Below, piece after piece: positions 5,241-14,521 of a stretch of DNA of 64,000 nucleotides. Each line of letters opens with the position of its first letter. Positions within the stretch are counted from its first letter, which is position 1. Under the pieces are notes generated by a model. The model was given only the letters and a program-made list of their open reading frames with translations. It ran no database searches and was not told the origin of the DNA. The stretch comes from Hypericibacter terrae. GTDB taxonomy: Bacteria > Pseudomonadota > Alphaproteobacteria > Dongiales > Dongiaceae. The stretch spans positions 5,795,001 to 5,859,000 of the forward strand of contig NZ_CP042906.1 of assembly GCF_008728855.1 (NCBI RefSeq), in the 5' to 3' direction. The translations under genes and the position numbers were made by a program.

Positions 5241-5518
5241 GGCGATTCCTTGAAAATCACGGAGAACAACGGGTGAATGGCCGGGGAGCCTAACCCGGAT
5301 CGAGGTCTTTTGGCCATGTCCGCAGGGAGAACCGGCAGGGCCCGGAAACCGCGGATGAACCGGCTACCAAAAAGCGACAAATTATTAACGAATTGGCAGG
5401 GAGAATGAATCGGGGCGATCTGTCTTCGCCCCGCCGCCCGCCCCGAGGCCCTCGGGGACGGAGGCGGATTTTCATCGGGCCGCCATCACGGGGGGAGGAG
5501 CGGAGCCCGCAAGCATCC

Positions 5519-7417
<1,899 letters not shown>

Positions 7418-7539: not shown

Positions 7540-8541
7540 TCAGCCCTCGGCGCGGAAAGGCCGCGACAGCAGCGCGCCGATCGCGGTCTCGATGGCGGCG
7601 CCGCGATTGAGGATGTCATCCACCGCCGTGGCGATCGGCATGTCGATGCCCGCAGCCTCCGCTTGGGCGCGCAAGACCGAGGCGGTCCAGATTCCCTCCG
7701 CGACGCTGCGCCGTCCCGCCTGATAGTCGGCGAGACTCTTGCCTTCGCCGAGCGCGATGCCGAGCGAGAGATTGCGCGACTGCCGGCCGCTGCAGGTCAG
7801 GACCAGATCACCCAGTCCCGACAGGCCCATGAGCGTCTCCGGTTTGGCGCCGCGCGGCACGGCGAAGCGCATCATCTCGGCCAGCCCGCGCGCGATGAGC
7901 GCGGCGCGCGCATTGTCGCCGAGCCTGCGGCCGATCACGATGCCGCAGGCGATCGCCAGCACGTTCTTGATGGCGCCGCCGAGCTCGACGCCGGTGACAT
8001 CCCCCGACCAGTAGAGACGAAAACGCGGCGCGGCCAGCGCCTCCACGATCGCCTGGCCCAGCGCCGCATCGGTCGCGGCGACGGTGGCGGCCGTCGGGAG
8101 ATCGGCTGCGACCTCGCCGGCAAAGGTGGGTCCGCTCAAGACCGCGACCGGCACGCCCGGCAAGGTCCGGGCCAGCAATGCCGTCATGGTCAGTCCGCTG
8201 CTCTGCTCGATGCCCTTGGCGCAGATCACCACCGGCCGGCCTTGCGGCCAGATCGGCACGAGCCTCTCGCTGACCTCGCGCAGATGCTGGGCGGGAACGG
8301 CCAGCAGCAAGGCGTCGCAGTCGCGCATCGAGGCGAGATCGGCACTCGCACCGATGCGCGAATCGAGAGTGATGCCGGGGAGATAATCCGGATTCTCGTG
8401 GAGCGCCGCGATCAGCGCTGCGATCTCCGGACGATGGGCCCAGAGGCGGGCCTCGCGGCCGGCGCGCAGGGCAGCGACCGCCAGTGCCGTGCCCCAGGCG
8501 CCGGCGCCGAGGACGCCCCATCGCTGCAGCGTCATCGTCAT
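7540..8541 (-). CDS. gpsA: NAD(P)-dependent glycerol-3-phosphate dehydrogenase
   Basis: This 333-residue cytoplasmic enzyme reduces dihydroxyacetone phosphate to sn-glycerol-3-phosphate for phospholipid synthesis. The N-terminal Rossmann loop VLGAGAWGTALA, the LLAVPAQHLRE segment, VICAKGIEQ, LSGPTFAGEVA, the catalytic-lysine block GGAIKNVLAIACG and the MGLSGLGDLVLTC motif are all present, and length matches the family. ATG 8541 overlaps the tsaD stop in an ATGA arrangement, implying translational coupling. The frame is open upstream to 8697, but that extension lies inside tsaD and has no family similarity. Confidence 0.97.
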   Translation of the reverse strand: MTMTLQRWGVLGAGAWGTALAVAALRAGREARLWAHRPEIAALIAALHENPDYLPGITLDSRIGASADLASMRDCDALLLAVPAQHLREVSERLVPIWPQGRPVVICAKGIEQSSGLTMTALLARTLPGVPVAVLSGPTFAGEVAADLPTAATVAATDAALGQAIVEALAAPRFRLYWSGDVTGVELGGAIKNVLAIACGIVIGRRLGDNARAALIARGLAEMMRFAVPRGAKPETLMGLSGLGDLVLTCSGRQSRNLSLGIALGEGKSLADYQAGRRSVAEGIWTASVLRAQAEAAGIDMPIATAVDDILNRGAAIETAIGALLSRPFRAEG

Positions 8542-9626
8542 GCCTTGACGCCGGCCCCGGCCGCGCGCGGCGCGGTCGGGTCGAGCGGCCAGCGCGGCCG
8601 TGCCGCGAAATCGAGACCGTCGCCGTCGGCATGGGCCTGCCCGCTTTGCAGCCGTTCGATTCCGGCCCAGGCGATCATCGCGGCATTGTCGGTGCAAAGT
8701 CCGAGAGGCGGCGCCACCAGCGGAAGGCCCTTCGCCCGCGCGACCTCATCCAGCGCCTGGCGGATGCGTCCATTGGCGGCGACGCCGCCGGCCACCACCA
8801 GGGCGGTCAGCCCGCCGCCGGTCGCCGCGACGAGGTCGAGCGCGTTGGCGGTGCGATCCGCCAGCACCGCCGCAATCGCCTCCTGCAGCGCCAGCGCCAG
8901 CCCGTCGCGCTCGCGCTCGGGCAGGCGGCCTTCGACCGCCAGCTCTTCGGCGCGCTGGCGCAGCGCGGTCTTGAGACCGGAGAAGGAAAAATCGCAGCCG
9001 GGGCGGCCCAGCATCGGGCGCGGCAGGCCATAGCGCTTCGGGTCGAGGCCCGCTTCGGCTGCACGCCGGGCCGCCTGCTCGATCGCGGGCCCGCCCGGAT
9101 AGCCCAGTCCCAGCAGCTTCGCCCCCTTGTCGAAGGCCTCGCCGGCTGCGTCGTCGACCGTGGTGCCGAGGCGCCGGTAGCGCCCGACGCCGTCGACCCG
9201 CAGCAGCTGGCAATGGCCGCCCGAGACCAGCAGCAGCAGGAAGGGAAACCCGACGCCGGGATCGAGTCGCGCCGAGAGGGCATGGCCCTCGAGGTGATTG
9301 ATCGCAAGGAAGGGACGGCCGAGCGCCAGCGCCATGGCCTTGCCCATCGTCACGCCGACCAGCACGCCGCCGATGAGGCCGGGGCCCGCGGTCGCGGCGA
9401 TGGCGTCGATATCGTTGGCCGCGAGGCCCGCTTGTTCCAGCGCCTGGCCGATCAGCCGGTCGAGCTGGGTCAGATGGCTGCGCGCAGCGATCTCCGGCAC
9501 CACCCCGCCGAACGGCCGGTGCTCCTTCAGCTGCGACAGCACGAGCTCGACGATCCGCTCGCGCTTCTCGTTCACGATCGCGACCGCGGTCTCATCGCAA
9601 CTGGATTCGATACCTAGAACACGCAT
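8538..9626 (-). CDS. tsaD: tRNA N6-adenosine threonylcarbamoyltransferase
   Basis: This 362-residue protein is the Kae1/TsaD catalytic subunit that transfers the threonylcarbamoyl group to A37 of ANN-decoding tRNAs. Visible signatures are the MRVLGIESSCDETAVAIV phosphate-binding start, the metal-binding pair H111/H115 in NHLEGHALSAR, LLLLVSGGHCQLL, DDAAGEAFDKGAKLLGLGYPGG and FSFSGLKTA. The partner tsaB lies in this window at about 48.4 kb, and tsaC/tsaE are not present here. The gene is divergent from hemC and coupled to gpsA through an ATGA overlap. Confidence 0.97.
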   Translation of the reverse strand: MRVLGIESSCDETAVAIVNEKRERIVELVLSQLKEHRPFGGVVPEIAARSHLTQLDRLIGQALEQAGLAANDIDAIAATAGPGLIGGVLVGVTMGKAMALALGRPFLAINHLEGHALSARLDPGVGFPFLLLLVSGGHCQLLRVDGVGRYRRLGTTVDDAAGEAFDKGAKLLGLGYPGGPAIEQAARRAAEAGLDPKRYGLPRPMLGRPGCDFSFSGLKTALRQRAEELAVEGRLPERERDGLALALQEAIAAVLADRTANALDLVAATGGGLTALVVAGGVAANGRIRQALDEVARAKGLPLVAPPLGLCTDNAAMIAWAGIERLQSGQAHADGDGLDFAARPRWPLDPTAPRAAGAGVKA

Positions 9627-9918: not shown

Positions 9919-10860
9919 ATGACAGGCGCACGCGTCCGAATCGGCACCCGCGGCAGCCCTCTGGCACTGGCCCAGGCGCATGAGTTGCGCGACCGGCTCA
10001 GGGCCGCGCATGATGCGTTGCGCGTCGCCGATGCGATCGAGATTCGAATCATCAAGACCACCGGCGACAAGATCCAGGACCGGCCCTTGACCGAGATCGG
10101 CGGCAAGGGGCTGTTCACCAAAGAGATCGAGGAGGCGCTGATCGATCGGCAGATCGACATGGCGGTTCATTCGATGAAGGATGTGGAGACGCGTCTGCCG
10201 GAAGGTCTCGAGATCCCAACCCTGCTGGAGCGCGAGGATCCGCGCGACGCGCTGATCGCGCGCGAAGGCAGCAGCCTCGCCACCCTGCCGAAGGGAACGG
10301 TGGTCGGCTCCGCCTCGCTGCGGCGCAAGGCGCAGATCCTACTGCATCGCCCCGACCTCCCCGTGGTCAATCTGCGCGGCAATGTCGGCACGCGGCTGCA
10401 GAAGCTGGCCGAAGGCAAGATCGGCGCCACGCTCCTGGCGCTGGCGGGCCTGCGGCGGCTGGGCATGGAAGACAAGGTGACGGCGCTGCTCTCGACCGAC
10501 GAGATGCTGCCGGCCCCCGGCCAGGGCGCCATCGGCATCGAGATCCGGTCCGACGACGAGGAGGCCCGGCACTGGCTGGCACCGCTCGATCATCGCGCGA
10601 CCCATATCGCCGTCACGGCGGAACGTGCGCTGCTCGCCACGCTCGACGGTTCCTGCCGCACGCCGATCGCCGCCCTGGCCGAGATCAGCCATGACCGTCT
10701 TTCCTTGCGGGCCCTGATTGCGCTGCCCGATGGCAGCCAGCACCACCGCGAGACCGTCGAGGGGCCCGTCGCGCAAGCCGCGCAATTGGGACGCAAGGCC
10801 GGCGAGGCGCTGCGCAGCAAAGCCGGCGCCGCCTTCTTCGCCCGGCTGCAGGAAGCCTGA
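9919..10860 (+). CDS. hemC: Hydroxymethylbilane synthase (porphobilinogen deaminase)
   Basis: This 313-residue protein catalyses head-to-tail condensation of four porphobilinogens into hydroxymethylbilane, the third common step of tetrapyrrole synthesis. The family start IGTRGSPLALAQAHELRDRL, catalytic D88 in VHSMKDVETRLP, RRKAQILLHRPDLPVVNLRG and the dipyrromethane-cofactor cysteine C246 in LDGSCRTPIAAL are visible. The preceding region shares the divergent promoter interval with tsaD. hemC is followed after 23 nt by hemD in the same operon. Confidence 0.97.
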   Translation: MTGARVRIGTRGSPLALAQAHELRDRLRAAHDALRVADAIEIRIIKTTGDKIQDRPLTEIGGKGLFTKEIEEALIDRQIDMAVHSMKDVETRLPEGLEIPTLLEREDPRDALIAREGSSLATLPKGTVVGSASLRRKAQILLHRPDLPVVNLRGNVGTRLQKLAEGKIGATLLALAGLRRLGMEDKVTALLSTDEMLPAPGQGAIGIEIRSDDEEARHWLAPLDHRATHIAVTAERALLATLDGSCRTPIAALAEISHDRLSLRALIALPDGSQHHRETVEGPVAQAAQLGRKAGEALRSKAGAAFFARLQEA

Positions 10861-10883: not shown

Positions 10884-13040
10884 ATGGCGCTGACAGCTCT
10901 CATCACCCGACCCGATGACGACGCCGAACCGCTGGCCGCGGCGCTGATCGCGCGCGGCATCACGGTCGTGCGCGAGCCCCTGCTCGCGGTCAAGCCCGTC
11001 GCCGATGCCGTGGTCGATCTCGAGGGCGTGCAGGCGCTGCTCTTCACCAGTGCCAATGGCGTGCGCGCCTTCGCCAATCTTTCCCAGCGCCGCGATCTCC
11101 CGGTCTTCGCGGTGGGCGACAACACCGCGCGCACCGCGCGCGCCACCGGCTTCGACAATGTCGAGAGCGCCGCCGGTGCGGTCGACGATCTGGCGCGGCT
11201 GGTCGCGCGCCGGCTCGATCCCAAGCGCGGCGCCTTGTTCCATGCGGCGGGCTCGGCCGTTGCCGGCGATCTCGCGGGCCTGTTGAGCGAGAAGGGCTTC
11301 GAGCTCAGGCGCGTCATGCTCTATTCGGCCGATCAGGCGGCCGCGCTGACCGATGATGCCAGGACGCGACTCGAGCACGGCGAGATCGGCCTGGTCCTGC
11401 TGTTCTCGCCGCGCACGGCCGAGACCTTCGTGACGCTGGTGCGCGGTGCCGGCGACGCCGCGGTCCAGGGGATCGGGCAGGCGACGGCACTCTGCCTCAG
11501 CCCCGCCGTCGAGAAGGCGGCGCAAGGCCTGCCCTGGCGTTCGCTCCTGACGGCGGAGAAAGCCGATCTGCCCTCGATGTTGCGGCTGGTCGACCAGGCC
11601 GCCGAGGCGGCGCGGCCGGTTGTCAGCAGTGCCGCCACGCGCGACACGGCCAATGCCGGCGACACGCCGGCGCCGGCCGATATCGAGGCCGCCTTGAAGC
11701 GGATGGCGCGCCGTCCGCCGCCGGCGCGACGCTTCGCGCTGGTGGCAGGGCTCCTGATCCTGGTGGTGGCCGTCGTCGCCTCCCGGCCGCTCTGGCAACC
11801 CTTCATCGATCGCCTGACGACGACCTCGGAAACGGTGGTTCCCGCCTCGACCGACAGCGCCGGCACCGGCACGACCTCGACGGCCGCCGGCGCCTCGAAC
11901 GATACCAGCCTCGCCGCCGTCAAGGCGGAGGCGGCCCAGCTCGAAAGCGATCTCGCCCTGATGCAGGCCGCGATGGAACGGGCGGCGACCGAGCGCCAGG
12001 CGCAATGGGAGCGCATCGGCGCGCTCGAGAAGCAGATGGGCGATCTCAGCCCGAAGCTGGACGCGCTGGTCAAGGCGCAGGCCGAGCTGCAGGACAAGAT
12101 GGGACAGCAGACCTCGGGTGCAGCGACCGCTGCACCGGCGCTCCCTGAGGATATCGCGGCCCTGCCGGGCGAAATCGCGGATCTGCGTGCGAAGCTCGAG
12201 AGTCTCGCCGCCGCCGCGGCTCCGGCTCCGGCTCCGGCACCCAGCGAGGGCAGTGCCGACAACGCCGCACTCTCGAATCTGCAAACCTCGCTCGATCGGC
12301 TGTCGAACGAGAACGCGTCGCTCAAGGCGGCGCTCGACCAGGCGACGCAGCGCTTGAGCGCGCTCGACCAGCTGCAGCAGGAAAATGCCGCGCTGAAAGC
12401 CACGCTCGACCAGACCGCGCAGCGCCTGACGGCGCTGGAGGCGCGGCCCGTCGCCGCCACGGGCGAGGCCAAGAATGCGGCGCTGCTGCTGGCGACGGCG
12501 CAGCTCAAGAGCGCCATCGCGGCCGGACGCCCCTTCAATGCCGAGCTGCAGGCGGTCGACGGGCTCGCGGCCGACGATGACGGGCTGGCCGATGTCCTGA
12601 CCAAGGCGCATCTGACCCTGGGGAACTTTGCGCCCCAAGGGCTGCCGACCGCCTCGACCTTGCTGCAGCAGGTGCCGGGCCTGGTGGATGCGGCGCTGGA
12701 AACGTCCGGCGGCGCGCTCGCGGAGACTCCCTCCGGCAAGGGCTGGCTCGACCGGCTGCTGTCCGGCCTGTCGAAGCTGGTCAAGGTCAGGCCCAGCGAT
12801 GGCACCGCGACCGGCGACAACAATTCCGACCGGCTGGCGCGCGCCGAAAACGCCGCGGCGGCGGGCGACCTCGCGGCCACGAAGGCGGCGCTGGACGGCC
12901 TGACCGGGCCTGCGGCCGATGGGGTCAAGAGCTGGCGCGAGAACGCCGCCGCACGCCTCGCGGCCGATTCCACGCTCGATGGGCTCGAGCAGGCGGCCCT
13001 CGCCCGCGTCGCGGCCTCGCCTTCCACCGGCGGCGGCTGA
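10884..13040 (+). CDS. hemD: HemD-mitofilin fusion: uroporphyrinogen-III synthase + membrane-anchored Mic60-like domain
   Basis: A single uninterrupted 718-residue frame joins two proteins. Residues 1 to about 237 form a uroporphyrinogen-III synthase: MALTALITRPDDDAEPLAAA, VQALLFTSANGVRAFANL, VFAVGDNTARTARATGF and LLFSPRTAETF. A Pro/Ala-rich linker leads to one transmembrane helix (about 284-300), a long Ala/Gln/Leu coiled coil (about 342-520) and a C-terminal mitofilin-type domain (about 525-715) with ENAAAAGDLAATKAALDGL. In related bacteria hemD and the mitofilin/Mic60-like gene are usually adjacent but separate. ATG 10884 has AGGA eight bases upstream. The fusion would tether HemD to the inner membrane with Mic60 in the periplasm. 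It is followed 23 nt later by hemY. Confidence 0.9.
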   Translation: MALTALITRPDDDAEPLAAALIARGITVVREPLLAVKPVADAVVDLEGVQALLFTSANGVRAFANLSQRRDLPVFAVGDNTARTARATGFDNVESAAGAVDDLARLVARRLDPKRGALFHAAGSAVAGDLAGLLSEKGFELRRVMLYSADQAAALTDDARTRLEHGEIGLVLLFSPRTAETFVTLVRGAGDAAVQGIGQATALCLSPAVEKAAQGLPWRSLLTAEKADLPSMLRLVDQAAEAARPVVSSAATRDTANAGDTPAPADIEAALKRMARRPPPARRFALVAGLLILVVAVVASRPLWQPFIDRLTTTSETVVPASTDSAGTGTTSTAAGASNDTSLAAVKAEAAQLESDLALMQAAMERAATERQAQWERIGALEKQMGDLSPKLDALVKAQAELQDKMGQQTSGAATAAPALPEDIAALPGEIADLRAKLESLAAAAAPAPAPAPSEGSADNAALSNLQTSLDRLSNENASLKAALDQATQRLSALDQLQQENAALKATLDQTAQRLTALEARPVAATGEAKNAALLLATAQLKSAIAAGRPFNAELQAVDGLAADDDGLADVLTKAHLTLGNFAPQGLPTASTLLQQVPGLVDAALETSGGALAETPSGKGWLDRLLSGLSKLVKVRPSDGTATGDNNSDRLARAENAAAAGDLAATKAALDGLTGPAADGVKSWRENAAARLAADSTLDGLEQAALARVAASPSTGGG

Positions 13041-13063: not shown

Positions 13064-14521
13064 ATGCGCAGCACGCTCTGGTTTCTCCTGAAGCTTGCGA
13101 TCCTGATCGCGGCGGCGATCTGGATCGCGGACCGGCCCGGCCATGTCAGCTTCGACTGGCTCGGCTGGCGCGTCGACACCAGCGTCGGCGTGCTGCTGGC
13201 CGCGCTGCTGTTGCTGATGGCGCTCGCGGCCGTGCTCTACCGGCTCTGGCATGTGATCGTGCGGGGACCCCGCCGGCTTTCCGAACGCCGCGGCGAACGC
13301 CAGCGCCTCAAGGGCTATCGCGCCCTGACGCAAGGCATGGTCGCGGTCGCGGCGGGCGACGCCGAAGAGGCCAAGCGTCAGGCGCGCATCGCGCATGGGC
13401 TGCTGAAGGAACCGCCCCTGACCTTGCTGCTGGCGGCTCAGGCGGCGCAGCTCTCCGGCGACGAGACGGCCGCAAGGCGTTATTTCACCGCCATGCTGGA
13501 GCGGCCCGAGACGGCCTTCCTCGGCATGCGCGGCCTGCTCAACCAGGCGCTCGCCAAAGGCGACACCGGCGAAGCCCTGAAGCTGGCCTCCAAGGCGCAT
13601 GAAGAACGCCCGCAGGCCGGCTGGGCCGCGAAGGCGCTGCTCGATCTCGAATTGAAGCAGGGCGAATGGATCTCCGCGCGCCGCACGGCCAAGGCCGCCG
13701 AGAAGCTCAAGGTCATCGATCGCGAGCGCTATCGCCGCATCGAAGGCATTTCCTATCTCGAGCAGGCGCGGCTCGAGGCCGAAGCGGTGCGCGCCACGGC
13801 GCTGGCGCGCGATGCGGCGCGGCTCTTGCCGGATTTCGTGCCGGCCCTGGCGATCGAGGCGCGGGTGCTGGCGCGGGCCGGCCGCGAGCGCGAGGGCGAG
13901 AAGATTCTGGAGAAGGCCTGGAACCGCGGGCTCGGCCATCCGACCATCGCCAGCGCCTATGCCGCGATAAGGCCCAATGAAAGCGCGCTCGACCGGGCGC
14001 GGCGCTTCGAGAAGCTGACCCATGGACGGCCCGACGCGACCGAGAGCCGGCTGACACTGGCGGAAACCGCGATCGCCGCGGGGCTCTGGGGCCCGGCGCG
14101 AAGCAGCCTCGAGGCGGTGGCGGCAACGGAACGGTCGGCGCCCTCCTTGCGCCTCTGCCGGCTGATGGCCCGGCTCGAAGAAGGCGAGCATGGCGATCTG
14201 GCCGCCGCGCGGCGCTGGCTGATGGCGGCGGCCGATGCGCCGCCCGATCCCGCCTGGGTCTGCAATCATTGCGGGGCCACGGCCGGCGATTGGACCGCGC
14301 GCTGCGGCCACTGCGGCGAGTTCGACAGCCTGGCCTGGAAGGAAGGGGCTCGCGTGGTGCTGGCCCTGGGCGGGGTCGCGGGCGAGACGCGCAGCAGCGA
14401 AGCGCGCTTTCTGCCGGCAAGCCCGACGTCAGCCGCGCCGGCGCCGGCTGTGGCTGCCGCCGGCGATCCCAAGGCGGAGACCGGTGCTGCGCCGATCGAC
14501 GCCGCGCGCCTCATCACCTGA
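13064..14521 (+). CDS. hemY: HemY-like protein with TPR domain and C-terminal zinc ribbon
   Basis: This 485-residue inner-membrane protein has two N-terminal membrane segments (about 5-21 and 42-62) bracketing a short periplasmic stretch, the typical HemY N-terminal domain. A TPR-like helical region follows to about residue 390. Near the C terminus a CxxC-x10-CxxC cluster (C400, C403, C414, C417; CNHCGATAGDWTARCGHCG) with FDSLAW predicts a rubredoxin-like zinc ribbon. This protein is unrelated to protoporphyrinogen oxidase HemY; its role in heme synthesis is not defined. It forms an operon with hemC and hemD-mitofilin. GGAGG lies about 13 nt before the ATG. Confidence 0.9.
   Translation: MRSTLWFLLKLAILIAAAIWIADRPGHVSFDWLGWRVDTSVGVLLAALLLLMALAAVLYRLWHVIVRGPRRLSERRGERQRLKGYRALTQGMVAVAAGDAEEAKRQARIAHGLLKEPPLTLLLAAQAAQLSGDETAARRYFTAMLERPETAFLGMRGLLNQALAKGDTGEALKLASKAHEERPQAGWAAKALLDLELKQGEWISARRTAKAAEKLKVIDRERYRRIEGISYLEQARLEAEAVRATALARDAARLLPDFVPALAIEARVLARAGREREGEKILEKAWNRGLGHPTIASAYAAIRPNESALDRARRFEKLTHGRPDATESRLTLAETAIAAGLWGPARSSLEAVAATERSAPSLRLCRLMARLEEGEHGDLAAARRWLMAAADAPPDPAWVCNHCGATAGDWTARCGHCGEFDSLAWKEGARVVLALGGVAGETRSSEARFLPASPTSAAPAPAVAAAGDPKAETGAAPIDAARLIT

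Follow-up and report, generated by a model that had tools for sequence, protein, structure and literature searches.

Mic60 organises the crista junctions of mitochondria, and an alphaproteobacterial origin is ascribed to it (PMC12631773, PMC12136173). The bacterial gene is located among heme genes (PMC7641849). The accessible text of PMC7641849 describes an operon of hemC, hemD, the mitofilin gene IMMP and hemY, placed head-to-head with tsaD-gpsA-YciI-EVE, and treats the membrane gene of this operon as a divergent homologue of HemX with homology to mitofilin; it is silent on a HemD–mitofilin fusion and on internal starts. The words heme and operon are absent from the accessible sections of PMC12136173 and PMC12631773 on bacterial Mic60, and a HemD–Mic60 fusion is not described in the portions seen of PMC9764997, PMC7641849, PMC12631773, PMC3004389 and PMC12136173. 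A literature search found no HemD–Mic60 or HemD–mitofilin fusion, the main Mic60 papers, which possibly mention one, lying outside its reach. Gene order and the kinship of HemX and mitofilin are already published; the new point here is the junction between the two genes, with its internal starts.

A fused HemD/HemX family (NF005411, PRK06975) also combines, judging by its name, HemD with a membrane protein. The HemD half of the protein studied here matched the start of NF005411 (positions 6–91 of 660, E = 1.5e-8), but the whole protein scored 27 bits and did not reach the cut-off of 414; its membrane half is mitofilin, and the HemX domain PF04375 had no match in its own genome at E ≤ 0.001. 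Several HemX frames of 598–768 aa had a length sufficient for a HemD/HemX protein. Local alignment of the Mic60 and HemX profiles with hhalign gave a probability of 2% (P 0.024), from a shared 18-column motif alone; the kinship of the two proteins is taken here from PMC7641849. The alphaproteobacterial Mic60 (PF09731) shares with the present protein the membrane helix, the coiled coil, the C-terminal mitofilin domain and the position after hemD; the separate form begins past a hemD stop, whereas here the cytoplasmic end carries HemD.

The 64,000-nucleotide stretch of Hypericibacter terrae DNA analysed as a whole (the window) contains these genes as follows.

8538..9626, minus strand: tsaD, divergent neighbour (TIGR03723, 395.2 bits)
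9919..10860, plus strand: hemC, hydroxymethylbilane synthase (TIGR00212, 354.9 bits, cut-off 164)
10884..13040, plus strand: fused HemD–Mic60 ORF, 718 aa, calculated mass 73 kDa
10884..11594, plus strand: HemD domain, residues 1–237 (PF02602 match at 16–233)
11595..11732, plus strand: cytoplasmic linker, residues 238–283, with a basic stretch at its end
11703..11705, plus strand: Met274, weak candidate internal start, the sole in-frame ATG between the end of HemD and the helix
11733..11789, plus strand: predicted single membrane helix, about residues 284–302 (hydropathy and model)
11898..12443, plus strand: predicted periplasmic coiled coil, about residues 339–520 (model helices and sub-threshold coiled-coil families)
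12444..13007, plus strand: mitofilin (Mic60 C-terminal) domain, about residues 521–708 (PF09731; family profile against 7pv1)
13064..14521, plus strand: hemY, TPR-type, heme-biosynthesis-associated (PF07219, E = 1.7e-27)

The fused ORF lay 23 bases from hemC and 23 bases from hemY, and hemC, the fused gene, hemY and the divergent tsaD followed the order described in the accessible text of PMC7641849. Two differences from that text were found: a histidine-kinase-like ORF (window 5393–7417) separated gpsA from the YciI and EVE genes, and HemY, a coproporphyrinogen oxidase there, was of the TPR type in the window. The kinase-like ORF, gpsA, YciI and EVE were named by reading their translations and tsaD by family profile. 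HemY scored 111.5 bits against TIGR00540, below the cut-off of 142, and its C-terminal end resembled a LapB-type rubredoxin-like zinc ribbon (residues 398–423; PF18073 25.0 bits, cut-off 25.7).

Translation of 10884–13040 gave 718 codons in a single frame with no internal stop, containing in order HemD, a linker of 46 residues, the predicted membrane helix, the coiled coil and the mitofilin domain. An initial annotation made from the letters alone had proposed this in-frame fusion and this order of parts; both held, with Pfam matches for the two halves, the helix and the coiled coil being predictions. The HemD half, which had been placed at about residues 1–237, matched PF02602 over nearly the whole profile (positions 2–230 of 231) with 128.6 bits (cut-off 27.5) and E = 2.7e-37, and in the AlphaFold model it consisted of blocks at pLDDT 83–97. 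It missed the cut-off of 223 bits of the HemD equivalog NF006621 (PRK09189), with 103.2 bits for the whole protein and 107.7 for the HemD part alone. Since this was the one PF02602 match found in the genome, uroporphyrinogen-III synthase activity is expected of it and, being the single HemD found, the enzyme would presumably be made tethered at the inner membrane.

Identification of the second half was narrower in the window's protein than in its relatives. PF09731 was not among the matches listed for the whole protein at E ≤ 1 (25 of 34 families), and a search of the window's own genome did not detect it at E ≤ 0.001. Residues 500–718 searched separately, as the initial annotation had suggested, passed marginally (28.4 bits against a cut-off of 27.4, E = 1.1e-6), while PF09731 matched at E ≤ 0.001 in all 15 other genomes of the family with a fused frame and at E ≤ 0.01 in 66 of 71 aligned Mic60 C-terminal domains (alignment A2: 69 of the 70 rows listed of 100 non-redundant ones, the window stretch and L003). 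The profile of these domains matched the solved MIC60 mitofilin construct 7pv1 with E = 5.6e-11. In the AlphaFold model, long helices lay between residues 339 and 520, and the C-terminal domain was helical, with a mean pLDDT of 87.6. A Foldseek search with this domain returned nothing at E ≤ 0.001, the MIC60 helical-bundle dimer 9qwr standing at rank 33 (E = 2.0), and a second fold search listed helical bundles of many kinds with MIC60 not among them.

A single membrane helix near residues 284–300 had been claimed as well, and the predictions agree with it. The best 19-residue hydropathy (2.34) was found directly past the linker, and the full-length model had a helix at 285–299, where confidence was low. 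Six basic residues stand within the 12 residues before the helix and two closely after it; the residues ahead of the helix would fit an N-in topology.

The arrangement was conserved in the window's family. In a set of 61 genomes, 17 were from this family. Of these, 16 gave a match, and each of the 16 had HemD and Mic60 in a single frame: the window's genome, a second genome of its genus and 14 more, isolates and metagenome bins included. The seventeenth, 68% complete, had no match. Removal of a stop or a frameshift by faulty sequencing or assembly, raised at the outset as a way in which the fusion could be spurious, is refuted by these independent genomes; no support for it was found and its probability is negligible. 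The HemD–Mic60 join in the window is real.

Beyond the family, HemD was found in 232 of 288 Alphaproteobacteria genomes, and the loci examined were the listed HemD frames of at least 450 aa (48, two extra copies in genome G044 left out) and 52 shorter ones. The 103 genomes examined from this sample, a set enriched for long HemD frames, comprised 44 with the fused form, 54 with separate genes and 5 in which Mic60 was not found. The fused form thus occurs in at least 44 of the 232 HemD-bearing genomes, a lower bound because weaker HemD matches lay outside the listing. With both sets combined, likewise enriched for long frames, 56 of 119 genomes were fused, 56 separate and 7 without a detected Mic60; 25 of 62 families had a fusion and 7 had both states. 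The earlier statement that the two genes are adjacent but separate in relatives was therefore correct for 54 of the 103 genomes and not for the 44 fused ones or for the window's family, which was fused throughout; the proposed check for fused forms in related genomes was positive at both levels. A Pfam check of five proteins, four of them fused, placed those of Dongia mobilis and Ferruginivarius above both cut-offs; fused L063 fell slightly short for Mitofilin (26.5 bits, cut-off 27.4), and fused L105 had no Mitofilin match at E ≤ 0.001, its Mic60 part being assigned by a profile built in this analysis.

Two other features of these loci were recorded. The fused locus occurred three times in the single-contig genome G044 (contig 1; L023, L079, L080, L117), two copies, oppositely oriented, lying in the last 6 kb at one end and the third some 24 kb from the opposite end; an error of assembly may have produced this pattern. 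The position of HemD in several long frames, about 320 codons from their start, suggested a triple HemC–HemD–Mic60 fusion, which was rejected for the loci examined, as none of 202 HemC matches fell inside a HemD frame.

In a tree built from HemD and Mic60 together (112 rows), the fused and separate states required at least 19 changes, 8 of them forced by starred branches, and the window's family formed an all-fused clade (SH-aLRT 98). The tree was a quick LG+G4 reconstruction, in which two rows were long and 15 had an odd composition and from which matches with fewer than 180 HemD residues and the 7 genomes without Mic60 were left out. Such repeated switching, at least eight times on this tree, means that the fused state is not strictly required, and the join may be merely tolerated. 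It fits a neutral fusion, in which the hemD stop was lost in a tight operon and the halves act independently, the join having no role. This reading implies the same structure as a functional tether and disputes its meaning alone; the retention of the join in 16 of 16 family genomes speaks against it.

The junction itself bears on both readings. Frames were made distinct by HemD sequence and duplicates dropped, giving 82 fused frames, which are related by descent and not independent, and 85 separate pairs (89 less about four duplicates). Among the separate pairs, 24 shared a frame, and 22 of these had one in-frame stop between the genes, which is what a neutral loss of the stop would start from. 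Loss of one stop codon would suffice for fusion, and fusion would arise easily because the genes abut and often share frame; it would be tolerated because the N terminus of Mic60 is predicted to face the cytoplasm.

An in-frame ATG stood 2–40 codons past the end of HemD in 65 of the 82 fused frames and was absent from this range in the other 17. Energies of ribosome binding were calculated with an assumed anti-Shine-Dalgarno sequence, because the 3' end of the 16S rRNA was not found in the window's own genome with one exact pattern. Values of −5 or better were obtained for 58 of 81 post-HemD ATGs; the figures for comparison were 12 of 90 for ATGs within the HemD part of these fused frames and 42 of 85 for ATGs in the 85 separate pairs. 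Per fused frame, the best ATG reached this level in 53 of 65 and the first ATG in 47 of 65, although the comparison of a best ATG per frame with single control ATGs is biased. An alternative count of ATG, GTG and TTG codons up to the helix gave 32 of 82 frames at −7.5 or better versus 1.4% of 1534 control codons, and is biased by the several candidates per linker. The residue behind the better ATGs was A, S or T in 41 of 53, and in some fused frames, e.g., L030, a GTG with a strong site took the place of the ATG. The excess over ATGs inside HemD (58 of 81 versus 12 of 90) indicates that many of these "fusions" probably give both HemD–Mic60 and free Mic60. That 53 of the 82 fused frames have an internal start preceded by a binding site would also suit a neutral join.

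In the window's family, 10 of 16 genomes had an in-frame ATG 9–10 codons past the end of HemD with a binding-site energy of −5.6 to −9.4. The ribosome-binding motif was kept despite differing codons and in different codon phases (CAA AGG AGA in G013, ACA GGG GGA GAG in G009). The six genomes lacking this ATG were the two of the window's genus (G000, the window's own, and G001), G002 of the next genus, G003, G005 and G014. The window's frame belonged to the 27 of 82 fused frames with no ATG in range or with one weaker than −4. An internal start giving two separate proteins had also been named as a possible objection to the fusion; it is weak in the window's genus, where Met274 and TTG271 are the candidates, and well supported in those 10 genomes of the family, as well as in many fused frames elsewhere.

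Two products might nonetheless be made in the window's species too, with free Mic60 arising from a start at Met274 or TTG271 or by proteolysis and the full-length protein being minor, as the internal starts of the 10 relatives would suggest. Met274 is present in G000, G001 and G002, directly ahead of the basic stretch and the helix. With a 20-base upstream stretch its energy was −5.9 in G000, equal to that of TTG271 in this genome, and its counterpart in G002, 37 codons past the end of HemD, had −5.3. However, a 17-base stretch gave −2.0 in G000 and −1.7 in G001, the longer one gave only −2.0 in G001, and TTG271 had no counterpart listed in G001. Moreover, an internal start would leave HemD joined, because without a stop ribosomes run on into Mic60. 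We consider this alternative unlikely. With no conserved start and other candidates weak, the fusion looks obligate, or close to it, in the window's genus, which also counts against a neutral join there.

Between the two genomes of this genus, dN/dS of the linker was 0.235, compared with 0.178 for HemD and 0.253 for the mitofilin domain. Against G002, the linker as a whole gave 1.01 and its second half 0.57, with HemD at 0.40 and the mitofilin domain at 0.82, so that the comparisons support constraint on the linker within the window's genus only. Such constraint is a further point against neutral fusion, to which we assign somewhat less than an even chance.

Of 167 distinct Mic60 frames, 42 (24 of the 82 fused and 18 of the 85 separate ones) had a Cro/YdaS-like helix-turn-helix in the cytoplasmic part preceding the helix, e.g., L053 4832–5005, L103 4890–5063, L105 4844–5017 and L154 1787–1960. 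Nine aligned examples matched Cro (3bd1, E = 7.2e-5) and Pfam P22_Cro and YdaS_toxin (E ≤ 0.01), and the Denitrobaculum motif exceeded the NCBIfam carph-isopro cut-off (60.7 versus 38 bits). The motif is a putative membrane-anchored DNA-binding-like module; the window protein was without it.

The proposal drawn from these observations is that one cistron of the hemC-hemD/mic60-hemY operon would encode a fused protein, with HemD in the cytoplasm, an N-in membrane helix, and the coiled coil and mitofilin domain in the periplasm. Uroporphyrinogen-III synthase would then be made joined to Mic60 and tethered to the inner membrane, as each ribosome completing HemD, meeting no stop, would continue into Mic60; HemD could be cleaved off the fused protein. 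Such tethering, and the link between the heme pathway and the membrane that the initial annotation drew from it, would be compatible with the arrangement of the parts. In many relatives, an in-frame start and ribosome-binding site past HemD would yield fused and free Mic60 from one gene. As a whole, i.e., a tethered HemD–Mic60, two products in many relatives and a nearly obligate fusion in the window's genus, we regard this proposal as likely. We are least sure that the tether couples tetrapyrrole supply to the membrane, as opposed to being merely tolerated.

A wider reading, offered tentatively and with more doubt than belief, is that Alphaproteobacteria repeatedly carry hemD-mic60 as a gene with two products, which places HemD at the membrane sites of Mic60 in a set proportion. 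If true, HemD and Mic60 would act at one site in general, the setting of bacterial Mic60 would include an inner-membrane station of tetrapyrrole synthesis, and the link would have been made obligate in lineages such as the window's genus. For annotation, two products are possible for many such frames. The natural and recurring covalent join of HemD to Mic60, separable by an internal start, makes the gene order a physical hypothesis, open to testing in, e.g., the isolates Dongia mobilis and Ferruginivarius sediminum.
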